Part shown: in pieces, positions 28,508-32,306 of the stretch | Numbering within the stretch: position 1 is the stretch's first letter | Layout of the letters: each line of letters opens with the position of its first letter | DNA from: an uncultured Archangium sp. | GTDB taxonomy: Bacteria; Myxococcota; Myxococcia; Myxococcales; Myxococcaceae | Assembly (NCBI GenBank): GCA_903905455.1 | Contig: CAIVGN010000214.1 | Coordinates: 1 to 32,306 of the forward strand | Length of the DNA stretch: 32,306 bases | Direction of reading: 5' to 3' | Translations under genes and position numbers: made by a program | The notes under the pieces: generated by a model | What the model was told of the DNA's origin: nothing | The model's database searches: none | What the model saw: only the letters and a program-made list of their open reading frames with translations

Positions 28508-29272
28508 TCAGTGCGCGAGCCAGCCCGCGTCCATCGTCTGCGCGGTGCCGGTGATGCTCCAGGCGCCCTCGCTGCACAGGAAGGTGGCGAGCTGCGCGAC
28601 CTCGTGCGGCTCGATGAGCTTCTTGATGGCGTTCTGGGTGAGCATCACCTTCTCGACGACCTCCGACTCGGCGATGCCGTGGGCCTTCGCCTGGTCGGCG
28701 ATCTGCTTCTCGACGAGCGGGGTGCGCACGTAGCTGGGGCAGATGGCGTTGACGGTGAGGTTGCTGCAGCGGGCGCCGGCCTCGAGGGCCACGGTCTTGG
28801 TGAGACCGAGCACGCCGTGCTTCGCCGACACGTAGGCGCTCTTGAAGGGCGAGGCGATGAGGCCGTGCACCGAGGCCACGTTGATGATCCGCCCCCAGTT
28901 GCGCTCGTACATGCCCGGCAGCGCGGCCTGGATGAGCTGGAACGGCGCGGTGAGCATCACCTGGAGCAACAGGTCCCACTTCGCGGGGTCGAAGGTCTCG
29001 ATGGGGCTGACGTGCTGCAGGCCCGCGTTGTTGACCAGCACGTCGATGGGCCCGGCTTCCACGGCGAGGGCGGAGACGGCGGCCTTCTGCGAGAGATCGG
29101 CGGCGAGGCAGCGCACCGTGGGCATGTCCGCGAAGACCTCGGCGAGCTTCGACGCCGACACGTCGCTGGCGATGACCTGCATGCCCTGCGCGTGGAACTC
29201 CCGAACGATGGCGAGGCCGATGCCCGACGCGGCCCCGGTGACGAGCGCGCGCTTCTTCTCGAGGGTCTTCAT
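28508..29272 (-). CDS. bdhA: 3-hydroxybutyrate dehydrogenase (short-chain dehydrogenase)
   Basis: 254 residues, the usual length. Cofactor loop TGAASGIG (12-19), NNAG (81-84) and the catalytic set Ser134, Tyr147, Lys151. The stretches LQHVSPIETF (85-94) and VASVHGLIASPFKSAYV (132-148) are characteristic of D-3-hydroxybutyrate dehydrogenases. It oxidises 3-hydroxybutyrate to acetoacetate with NAD, as in polyhydroxybutyrate breakdown. The ATG at 29272 overlaps the stop of the alpha/beta hydrolase gene as ATGA. The nearby permease supports this substrate, though the pairing is inferred. Confidence 0.93.
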   Translation of the reverse strand: MKTLEKKRALVTGAASGIGLAIVREFHAQGMQVIASDVSASKLAEVFADMPTVRCLAADLSQKAAVSALAVEAGPIDVLVNNAGLQHVSPIETFDPAKWDLLLQVMLTAPFQLIQAALPGMYERNWGRIINVASVHGLIASPFKSAYVSAKHGVLGLTKTVALEAGARCSNLTVNAICPSYVRTPLVEKQIADQAKAHGIAESEVVEKVMLTQNAIKKLIEPHEVAQLATFLCSEGAWSITGTAQTMDAGWLAH

Positions 29273-30108
29273 GTGAGGTGCTCCTGCACCGCCTTCGCGG
29301 TGTCTGGGTGGTTCATGACGCCGTAGTGGTTGGCGGGAACCTCGATGGCCCTCGCTTGCTTCGCGGCGCGGAGGAAGGCGTCTCGATCCTCCGCGGTGAT
29401 GATGTTGGCGCCGGGGCCGAAGGGGATGGCGGCGCGCACCAGCAACGCCGGCGCGCTCACGTGGGGCCACAGCTGCCGCACGTCGGTCACCGCGGCGTAC
29501 TGGAGATCTTCGACCACGGTGTCCTTGTCCGCGCGTTGCCGCACGCCGCCTTCGGTCTCCACGAGGTCTTCGCGGTAGTGCGCTTCCCAGAAATCTCCCC
29601 AGGGCACGGCGCCCGCGCTCTTCACCAGCGCGAGGAAGGCGTCGACCGAGGGGTACACCGCGCCGAGGCGCTGGGCGGCGGCGAGGATGGGGGGCATCGC
29701 CCGGGGATCGGGCACGCCCACCGCGTCGATGAGCACCAGCCGGCGCACCCGCTGCGGAGCGATGGCCATCAGCGCGAGGCCCACGAAGGCGCCCATGCTG
29801 TGGCCGACGTAGTCGAACTGCGCGGCGCCCTGGGCGTCGGCCACGGCGAGGACGTCACGGGCGTGGGCGGCCCAGCCGTGGGTCCCCGGCAGGCCCGGCG
29901 CGCTGCGGCCACGACCCCGGAGGTCCAGGGCGAGCATCGAGCGGCCCATCGCCGCGACTGCGGGACCCAGCGCGCCGAAGGTGAAGCAGTTGGCCGACAG
30001 CCCCGGCACGCCGATGGTCAGCGGGGTGCCTGCTTCACCGTGCAGCCGCGCGCGCAATACGCCTGAGGGCAGGGTCAGCGAGCGGTCCACTCCGGGGGAA
30101 GGGGTCAC
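29269..30108 (-). CDS. Alpha/beta-fold hydrolase
   Basis: 279 residues from GTG at 30108. Elements: oxyanion loop VPGLSAN (34-40), RGRGRSA (64-70), nucleophile elbow GHSMG (Ser104 at its centre), and a C-terminal His in NHYGVMNHP. The substrate is not visible; given the neighbours, a hydroxybutyrate ester, oligomer or lactone is plausible. A longer open frame reaches 30192 but would read through the palindromic boxes, so GTG is preferred. Coupled to the dehydrogenase by ATGA overlap, and first of the minus-strand unit from this divergent promoter region. Confidence 0.85.
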   Translation of the reverse strand: MTPSPGVDRSLTLPSGVLRARLHGEAGTPLTIGVPGLSANCFTFGALGPAVAAMGRSMLALDLRGRGRSAPGLPGTHGWAAHARDVLAVADAQGAAQFDYVGHSMGAFVGLALMAIAPQRVRRLVLIDAVGVPDPRAMPPILAAAQRLGAVYPSVDAFLALVKSAGAVPWGDFWEAHYREDLVETEGGVRQRADKDTVVEDLQYAAVTDVRQLWPHVSAPALLVRAAIPFGPGANIITAEDRDAFLRAAKQARAIEVPANHYGVMNHPDTAKAVQEHLT

Positions 30109-30131
30109 GCGCGGCGGATAGCAGTGTTCGA

Positions 30132-30146
30132 TGTTGCGGCGCAACA
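30132..30146. promoter_or_regulatory. Palindromic operator-like box 1
   Basis: TGTTGC-GGC-GCAACA, a perfect 6+3+6 dyad, 24 bases upstream of the hydrolase start. It overlaps a possible minus-strand promoter (TTGCGC, 18 bases, TATCCG). See box 2 for the second copy and the finding for the interpretation. Confidence 0.7.
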
Positions 30147-30174
30147 CGACGCTGGGGGCGGAGGCGGCAACGGT

Positions 30175-30193
30175 CGTGTTGCGGTGCAACACG
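30175..30193. promoter_or_regulatory. Palindromic operator-like box 2
   Basis: CGTGTTGC-GGT-GCAACACG, a perfect 8+3+8 dyad, 28 bases upstream of the permease ATG. It shares the core TGTTGC-N3-GCAACA with box 1, and the two centres are 45 bases apart. The region also holds TAGGGT at 30207-30212, ending 9 bases before the ATG, a candidate -10 box. Confidence 0.75.
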
Positions 30194-30221: not shown

Positions 30222-31613
30222 ATGTCCCTGCTCATCGTCCTCGCGGCGCTCGGGTTCCTGATGTGGGTCGCCTACCGGGGCGCGAGCGTGATCGTCTTCG
30301 CGCCCGTGGCCGCGCTGCTGGCGGTGCTGGTGAGCGCGCCGCTCGAGGTGGCCCCGGCGTTCTCGGCCCTGTTCCTCGAGCGCATGGCGGAGTTCCTCAA
30401 GAGCTACTTCCCGGTGTTCCTGCTCGGCGCGCTCTTCGGCAAGTTGATCGAGCTCTCGGGCTTCGCGCAATCGATCGTCGCCGCGGTGCTCAAGCTGCTG
30501 GGTCGCGAACGCGCCATTCCGGCGGTGGTGCTGGTGTGCGCCCTGCTGACCTACGGGGGCGTCTCGCTCTTCGTGGTGGTGTTCGCGGTCTACCCGTTCG
30601 CCGTCGAGCTCTTCCGCCGCACCGACATTCCGCGCCGGTTGATCCCCGGCACCATCGCGCTGGGTGCCTTCACCTTCACCATGGACTCGTTGCCCGGCAC
30701 CCCGCAGATCCAGAACGTGATCCCCACCACGTTCTTCGGTACCACCACCTGGGCGGCAGCGACGCTGGGCACGGTCGGCGCGGTGTTCATCTTGATCACC
30801 GGGCTGCTCTACCTCGCGCGGCGTCGTCGGCAGGCGGCGGCCGCCGGTGAGGGCTTCGGCGTGTTGCCCCCGGACCTGGCGACCCCGGTGGCCGAGGCCC
30901 CGCGCGTGCACTGGGCCCTCGCGTTGGCGCCGCTGGTGGTGGTGGGCGTGGCCAACCGCCTGCTGACCTCCGCCATCAAGGGGCTCTACGGCGACAAGTT
31001 CGAGTTCACGCCCGCGGGCGCGAGCGCCGCGTTGACGGTGAACGTCACCAAGTGGGCGGCGATCTGGGCGGTGGAGGCCGCGTTGCTCCTGGGCATCCTG
31101 ACGGTGGTGCTCTTCGCCTTCGGTCGCGTGCGGCAGCACTTCACGGCGGGGAGCAAGGCCGCGGTGTCCGGCGCGCTGCTCGCCTCGATGAACACCGCCT
31201 CGGAGTACGGCTTCGGCGCGGTCATCGCGTCGTTGCCCGGGTTCCTGCTCATCTCCGACGCGCTCAAGCGCATTCCTTCACCGCTGGTGGGCGAGGCCGT
31301 CTCAGTCACCACCCTGGCGGGCATCACCGGCTCGGCGTCCGGGGGCATGGGCCTCGCGCTGGGCGCCATGGCCAGCACCTTCATCGAGCAGGCGAAGGCC
31401 GGGCACATCCCGATGGAGGTGCTCCACCGCGTCGCCGCCATGGCCAGCGGAGGCATGGACACGCTGCCGCACAACGGCGCGGTGATCACCCTGCTGGCGG
31501 TCACCGGGCTCACCCACCGCGAGAGCTACCGGGACATCTTCGCCATCACCCTGATCAAGACCGCGGCGGTGTTCGTGGTCATTGCGCTCTACACCGCGAC
31601 CGGCCTCGTCTGA
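30222..31613 (+). CDS. GntP-family permease, probable 3-hydroxybutyrate or related organic-acid transporter
   Basis: 463 residues with about twelve membrane helices. Conserved GntP-type stretches include LLGALFGKLIELSG, LTYGGVSLFVVVF, TMDSLPGTPQIQNVIP, and late GSASGGMGLALG and GGMDTLPHNGAVITLL. GntP members carry gluconate, lactate or hydroxy-acids; here the dehydrogenase and hydrolase suggest 3-hydroxybutyrate. Specificity is inferred from context only. Starts at ATG 30222 under the divergent control region. Confidence 0.9.
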   Translation: MSLLIVLAALGFLMWVAYRGASVIVFAPVAALLAVLVSAPLEVAPAFSALFLERMAEFLKSYFPVFLLGALFGKLIELSGFAQSIVAAVLKLLGRERAIPAVVLVCALLTYGGVSLFVVVFAVYPFAVELFRRTDIPRRLIPGTIALGAFTFTMDSLPGTPQIQNVIPTTFFGTTTWAAATLGTVGAVFILITGLLYLARRRRQAAAAGEGFGVLPPDLATPVAEAPRVHWALALAPLVVVGVANRLLTSAIKGLYGDKFEFTPAGASAALTVNVTKWAAIWAVEAALLLGILTVVLFAFGRVRQHFTAGSKAAVSGALLASMNTASEYGFGAVIASLPGFLLISDALKRIPSPLVGEAVSVTTLAGITGSASGGMGLALGAMASTFIEQAKAGHIPMEVLHRVAAMASGGMDTLPHNGAVITLLAVTGLTHRESYRDIFAITLIKTAAVFVVIALYTATGLV

Positions 31614-32096
31614 CGAAACTCCCTCTCCCTGCGCGAGCGGGGAGAGGGCTGGGGTGAGGGGCCGACCTGGGCACGACCGCCCATTGCCCGCCCGCGCTTC
31701 CAGGACCGGGTCGCAGTGAGTGTCCGAGGGCGCACCTCACTCGGGAAGCGGCGGCCGCCTCGCCGGTCGAAAACCCGAAATGCTGTTCCGTCAGAACCTT
31801 CGCCATCACGCTCGTCGATGCGCGTGTCGACCTCCGCGAGCGACGCCTCAACGCCATCGAGCAGGTCAGGCGCCACCGTCCTTCGGTTGAGGGCCGGGGC
31901 GGAAGACGGGCGGACCCGCGAACCGCTGAACGAAGAGTGTCGTCACTCGTGGTCGGTGGCCGTTGGTGGAGTCGCTCCCCCATGCGCGGGCGCACCCGAG
32001 TTCGACACTGGCGTGGTGTGCAGGCGGGTGAAACACTTAGGCAACGTGCGCTGAGCCTCAGCCACTGTGCGTCCCAACCATCCATCGGTGAAATGA
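31614..32096. other. Non-coding or decayed stretch
   Basis: Starts with the hairpin repeat at 31621-31648. After that I see no open frame with family-like sequence or strong GC3 bias on either strand; the two longer frames across it (31716-32054 plus, 31579-32145 minus) disagree and look like chance. It may be a decayed gene or long leader, but I cannot tell which. Confidence 0.5.
31621..31648 (+). terminator. CCCTCTCCC hairpin repeat after the permease gene
   Basis: CCCTCTCCC at 31621-31629 and GGGAGAGGG at 31640-31648 form a perfect 9-base stem with a 10-base loop, just 7 bases after the permease stop. It is followed by ctggggtgagggg, a sequence seen with this hairpin in many proteobacterial intergenic regions. 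No T tract follows, so it may be a repeat element rather than a classical terminator. Confidence 0.55.
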
Positions 32097-32306
32097 ATGA
32101 GATTTGCCCACAAGTATGTCCTCGCTGCGTTCGTAGCGGTCGCAACCGCCTGCGGTCCGGCCAACCCCGGCACTGACGGCGGCTCGGGTGGCGGCAGTGC
32201 CATCACGGGTGGTGGCGGCGGCACCGCGACGGGCGGCGGCACCGCGACGGGCGGCGGCACCGCGACGGGCGGCGGCACCGCGACGGGCGGCGGCACCGCG
32301 ACGGGC
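32097..32306 (+). CDS. Gly/Thr-rich lipoprotein (partial, right edge)
   Basis: 70 residues before the window ends, no stop. The signal is MRFAHKYVLAAFVAVATAC, with Cys19 lipidated. After a short Gly/Ser spacer it enters a (GGGTAT)n repeat coded by perfect 18-base units. A GGTGA sequence lies upstream of the ATG at 32097. The rest of the protein is outside the window, so its fold is unknown. It has the same plan as the Cys-rich lipoprotein at 5113-6582: lipobox first, then flexible Gly linker. Confidence 0.8.
   Translation, partial: MRFAHKYVLAAFVAVATACGPANPGTDGGSGGGSAITGGGGGTATGGGTATGGGTATGGGTATGGGTATG
32217..32306 (+). repeat. Perfect 18-base tandem repeat (five units, continues off edge)
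   Basis: Five identical copies of an 18-base unit, GGCGGCACCGCGACGGGC, from 32217 to the window edge, encoding Gly-Gly-Thr-Ala-Thr-Gly in frame. Identity is complete, so the array is young or homogenised; it is a candidate variable-number repeat. Confidence 0.95.

Follow-up and report, generated by a model that had tools for sequence, protein, structure and literature searches.

The two TGTTGC-N3-GCAACA palindromes (boxes 1 and 2) located in the intergenic region separating a leftward hydrolase-bdhA operon from a rightward GntP-type permease gene of an uncultured Archangium sp. are, judging from sequence comparisons, very probably operators for the PhaR regulator encoded on contig C29 of the same genome, a prediction that includes repression of both transcription units and their release by polyhydroxybutyrate (PHB). 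The relevant features of the window (i.e. the whole stretch of DNA analysed, 32,306 nucleotides) are as follows:

28508..29272, minus strand: bdhA, 3-hydroxybutyrate dehydrogenase, a short-chain dehydrogenase (TIGR01963, 319.2 bits, cut-off 307.05)
29269..30108, minus strand: alpha/beta hydrolase, first gene of the operon (Abhydrolase_1, 6.6e-15), directly preceding bdhA in orthologous loci
30117..30124, minus strand: GATAGCAG block next to box 1, read as CTGCTATC on the minus strand; nearly invariant in this genome (G000), G142 and G091
30132..30146: box 1, TGTTGC-GGC-GCAACA, predicted PhaR operator before the hydrolase-bdhA operon (exact match; PhaR-profile score 21.9)
30177..30191: box 2, TGTTGC-GGT-GCAACA, predicted PhaR operator before the permease (exact match; PhaR-profile score 23.4, the highest in the window)
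30222..31613, plus strand: GntP-type permease, sharing ~66% identity with proteins that carry the annotation 'GntP family permease'

As an earlier, sequence-only reading had described, both boxes are exact copies of the motif with centres (30139 and 30184) 45 bp apart, corresponding to 4.3 turns and out of phase, and box 2 possesses 8-base arms (CGTGTTGC-GGT-GCAACACG, 30175-30193). The 28 bases given there to the permease start (ATG 30222) hold when counted from the extended box 2 (30 from the 15-bp box), while the likely hydrolase start (GTG 30108) is 23 bases from box 1, not 24. A pattern scan of the 8.6-Mb genome returned three exact copies of the motif, two of which are those in the window, and no exact copies of a reversed control pattern; thus, the motif is not spread at random throughout coding DNA, an outcome against which the same reading had cautioned. 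Allowing up to two mismatches added a single match in the window, which is intragenic.

The start of bdhA overlaps the hydrolase stop. The hydrolase displayed a weak match to the intracellular PHA depolymerase model (1.3e-6, far below the cut-off of that model) and probably hydrolyses hydroxybutyrate esters or oligomers inside the cell, its specific activity and substrate being putative. No match to the permease was obtained among Pfam and NCBIfam models, and a literature search for GntP-type hydroxybutyrate permeases turned up nothing useful. Its relatives in G116 and G065 adjoin bdhA-type and CoA-transferase genes, an arrangement supporting involvement of the permease in hydroxybutyrate use, and its neighbours indicate hydroxybutyrate or a related acid as the likely substrate. 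In the hydrolase-permease gap, no match to a sigma-70 consensus promoter was found; the GATAGCAG/CTGCTATC block may belong to an extended -10 element in the hydrolase promoter.

No regulator gene adjoins the boxes, in line with the earlier reading, and the candidate regulator is located on a contig other than that of the window. The genome encodes two PHB_acc_N proteins, on contigs C29 (G000:C29:181572) and C157. The PhaR-type C29 protein scored 94.1 bits against PHB_acc_N (PF07879, cut-off 25) and 102.7 bits against the equivalog TIGR01848, slightly below its cut-off of 109.45; by sequence, it is a PHB_acc_N protein near this curated equivalog and formally outside it. Since no separate PHB-binding domain was detected in this protein using Pfam and the TIGR01848 score lies below the cut-off, polymer sensing is presumed on the basis of homology. 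The C29 phaR gene lies beside an SDR gene and a small phasin-like gene, the latter named from its own sequence because it matched no Pfam or NCBIfam model; a class III phaC is found ~7.6 kb away. No solved PhaR structure was found, and two matches to AI-designed TIM barrels were rejected as spurious. Among 117 scanned genomes of the order, the C157-type protein (core paralogue) is present in nearly all, and the second type (PhaR proper, like C29) in 17, according to our reading of the scan. No PhaR-like boxes were observed near the C157 gene (L072 9430-10062).

To relate the boxes to PhaR, TGC-N3-GCA dyads near the gene were listed for 16 second-type loci, yielding 36 sites. At least one dyad was present at 15 of the 16 loci, typically one directly upstream of phaR and one right after its stop, and the seventeenth locus (L076) carries a site with one mismatch; the dyad adjoins the PhaR gene in at least 15 of the 17 genomes of the order carrying that gene. 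The 36 sites gave the consensus TKKTGC-RNY-GCAMMA, in which the RNY spacer arose unselected. In the present genome, the site upstream of phaR reads TGTTGC-ATT-GCACAC and the one separating phaR from the phasin-like gene reads TTGTGC-AGT-GCACAA, suggesting that PhaR probably also governs itself and the phasin. Both window boxes contain the same type of dyad (TGC-GGC-GCA and TGC-GGT-GCA, each with an RNY spacer), in a genome with a phaR gene that has a like dyad at its own locus.

A 15-bp profile (maximum 25.1) was trained solely on the PhaR loci of 15 genomes and included no bdhA locus. When applied to the window, it assigned 23.4 to box 2 and 21.9 to box 1, with the next best place at 13.2. 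None of 110,358 positions in 31 control loci, mostly of the core paralogue, reached 13, and in a simulated 6 Mb of window composition one position reached 19 and none reached 21.5, a value exceeded by both window boxes. Furthermore, the exact motif with an RNY spacer was found in 6 of the 17 PhaR genomes vs 2 of the 100 others (Fisher 9e-5, a descriptive value, as the cross-genome statistics treat related genomes as independent samples). The profile allows PhaR regulons to be read across Myxococcota.

The Myxococcales motif agrees with footprinted or shifted PhaR/PhbF sites of other phyla. PhbF of Herbaspirillum seropedicae was footprinted on the motif TG[N]TGC[N]3GCAA (PMC3206438); the half-sites (TGnTGC and GCAA), the 3-bp spacer, the type of regulator and a box before the regulator's own gene are common to both systems, whereas the phylum differs and the window boxes are also placed between hydrolase-bdhA and the permease. 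The PhaR site of Bradyrhizobium diazoefficiens, TGCRNYGCASMA (PMC6201568), shares the TGC-RNY-GCA core, which was derived independently here, and the phasin and depolymerase genes among its targets, together with the paired boxes of phaP1, represent a further likeness; in contrast, the outer arms are TKK/MMA here and both window boxes are fully palindromic. In Sinorhizobium meliloti, AniA/PhaR senses PHB and the phaP1 and phaP2 promoters carry two copies each of a palindrome (PMC12542648), which, like the present one, has two GC steps flanking an RNY-type centre; the text of that paper names neither bdhA nor hydroxybutyrate dehydrogenase. Published work describes PhaR as a PHB-binding repressor of phasin and depolymerase genes that acts in a PHB-dependent manner (PMC12542648, PMC6201568). 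No account of PhaR in myxobacteria was found in literature searches; in Myxococcota, a hydroxybutyrate permease and bdhA under the control of PhaR would apparently represent a known type of switch acting on new genes.

The hydrolase and bdhA orthologues occur together in G142 (same genus), G091, G162, G149, G157 and the MAG contigs L146 and L147. In all seven of these closest orthologous loci, boxes are located no more than 250 bp upstream of the hydrolase, with a site of at least 22 bits in each, so that the absence of conservation which the earlier reading had held out as a counter-indication was not observed. In G142, the permease is retained (86% identical) divergently to hydrolase-bdhA, and both boxes are present: box 1 is identical to that of the window at 15/15 positions and box 2 at 12/15 (with the TGC-N3-GCA core retained), compared with 11/30 for the 30-bp spacer between them. 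In G091, the outer box has a score of just 12.4, and the divergent position is taken by a Ser/Thr kinase gene instead of a permease gene. Two PHB_acc_N proteins, one of them of the second type, are encoded by each of G142, G091, G162 and G157, while no PHB_acc_N match was found in G149, a 78%-complete genome. Boxes were absent from two more distant loci (L148 and L230) and, according to the PhaR profile, from the loci in G116 and G065 that carry permease relatives. With this profile, no site above 11 bits was found at any of 25 Myxococcus-type bdhA genes, and those of their genomes included in the PHB_acc_N scan encode solely the core protein.

The arrangement of the boxes bears on whether two PhaR oligomers hold a DNA loop (looping had been raised as a possibility in the sequence-only reading) or bind cooperatively in a geometry fixed by the 45-bp spacing. 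Exactly 45 bp is kept in G000, G142 and G091, and distances of 45 and 46 bp separate two boxes near phaR at L087 and L088. In the more distant orthologues, however, the spacing ranges from 32 to 80 bp (54 and 32, 77 and 76, and 80 and 70 bp), and G162 has a single box; moreover, a distance of 4.3 turns is out of phase and short for a loop, and in S. meliloti either of the two boxes is sufficient by itself for binding (PMC12542648). Because the spacing is not kept beyond near relatives, looping is considered unlikely, as is a fixed cooperative geometry.

The pattern with an RNY spacer was adopted because all 14 of the zero-mismatch TKKTGC...GCAMMA matches that were checked lie inside predicted genes. 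The relaxed motif with this spacer yielded 23 sites vs 5 for the reversed control, and 9 of the 23, including both window boxes, were judged intergenic (binomial 2e-4, assuming that intergenic sequence makes up 10% of the DNA). A scan allowing two mismatches was uninformative (502 matches vs 409 for the reversed control) and was set aside. The candidate sites outside the window, among which the murJ-like gene was named by its own sequence only, are:

C29: phaR-phasin site, intergenic relaxed RNY match
C187 (L257 3902-3916 and 3960-3974): pair of boxes 58 bp from each other, preceded by a CoA-transferase gene and followed by an SDR-thiolase operon
C171 (L259 3601-3615): TGCTGC-AAT-GCAGCA, with a TetR-type gene on one side and a gene for an extracellular short-chain PHA depolymerase on the other
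C174 (L261 3678-3692): TGTTGC-ACT-GCAGCA, directly upstream of ackA-pta
Before a murJ-like gene: intergenic relaxed RNY match
C197:81783-81797 (L001 1501-1515): third exact copy in the genome, preceded by an acyl-CoA dehydrogenase gene and located upstream of etfBA

By sequence, the sites at the SDR-thiolase operon, the PHA depolymerase gene, phaR-phasin, the murJ-like gene and ackA-pta are likely further regulon members, and the last would tie acetate metabolism to PhaR. Among the sites outside the window and the phaR locus, conservation across genomes was checked for the etfB site alone. No such box was found upstream of etfB in any of the 21 further PhaR genomes whose upstream sequence was readable, and the site was dropped as a third regulon member, being either lineage-specific or a chance occurrence.

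The TetR-type gene adjoining the C171 site raises the question of whether the protein at the boxes is a different dimeric regulator, such as one of the TetR type, or the C157 PHB_acc_N protein, which has the same DNA-binding domain as PhaR. Either case is quite improbable: the motif tracks the locus of PhaR proper, the control loci are dominated by core paralogues lacking a site, the core paralogue occurs in nearly all Myxococcales scanned, the majority of which lack the motif, and the exact RNY-spacer motif is concentrated in PhaR genomes, with the caveat of relatedness given above. The box-associated PhaR is now set apart from the second PHB_acc_N protein, which is box-free in nearly all Myxococcales scanned. 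The notion that the dyads are coding sequence of an N-terminally extended hydrolase, or RNA hairpins, is hardly credible, as the longest hydrolase-frame ORF (from GTG 30192) indeed reads both boxes, as LHRN and LRRN, but hydrolase homology begins near the conserved GTG 30108, the open frame of G142 begins at box 1 and excludes box 2, the spacer bases in G142 are unconserved while the boxes are conserved, like dyads occur at phaR and phasin, and the gap contains no terminator-like site.

PhaR as the regulator of both units, a type of regulator already guessed in the sequence-only reading, is thus supported by the PhaR-type gene in the genome, the dyad at phaR loci and the boxes at hydrolase-bdhA orthologues. 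From the position of the boxes alone, we infer that the regulator would shut both operons. A PhaR oligomer may occupy each box, over the hydrolase-bdhA promoter at box 1 and over that of the permease at box 2, and would thereby repress both transcription units. Once PHB is made, PhaR would be drawn onto the granules and both units released, upon which hydroxybutyrate or its oligomers would be imported, hydrolysed and oxidised to acetoacetate. By analogy with known PhaR proteins, the ligand is more likely the polymer than free hydroxybutyrate. A locus for hydroxybutyrate uptake and degradation would accordingly gain a predicted regulator and operator sequence, in bacteria for which no PhaR regulation was found described.

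It is further conceivable, though less likely than not, that a lineage-wide PhaR regulon of Myxococcota directly links PHB storage to hydroxybutyrate uptake and oxidation, acetate activation (ackA-pta) and an extracellular PHA depolymerase, with electron transfer flavoprotein added in this species. If so, the polymer would report broadly on carbon status, carbon obtained from prey or neighbours included.

Two further elements were observed. Inverted CCCTCTCCC/GGGAGAGGG elements, which look like a dispersed repeat, are located after the permease (window 31620-31660) and, in G142, between box 2 and the permease (L226 9562-9610). Finally, the region at 32180-32306 of the window comprises a short tandem repeat (GGCGGCGGCACCGCGACG) within a lipoprotein-like reading frame that is ended by the contig edge.
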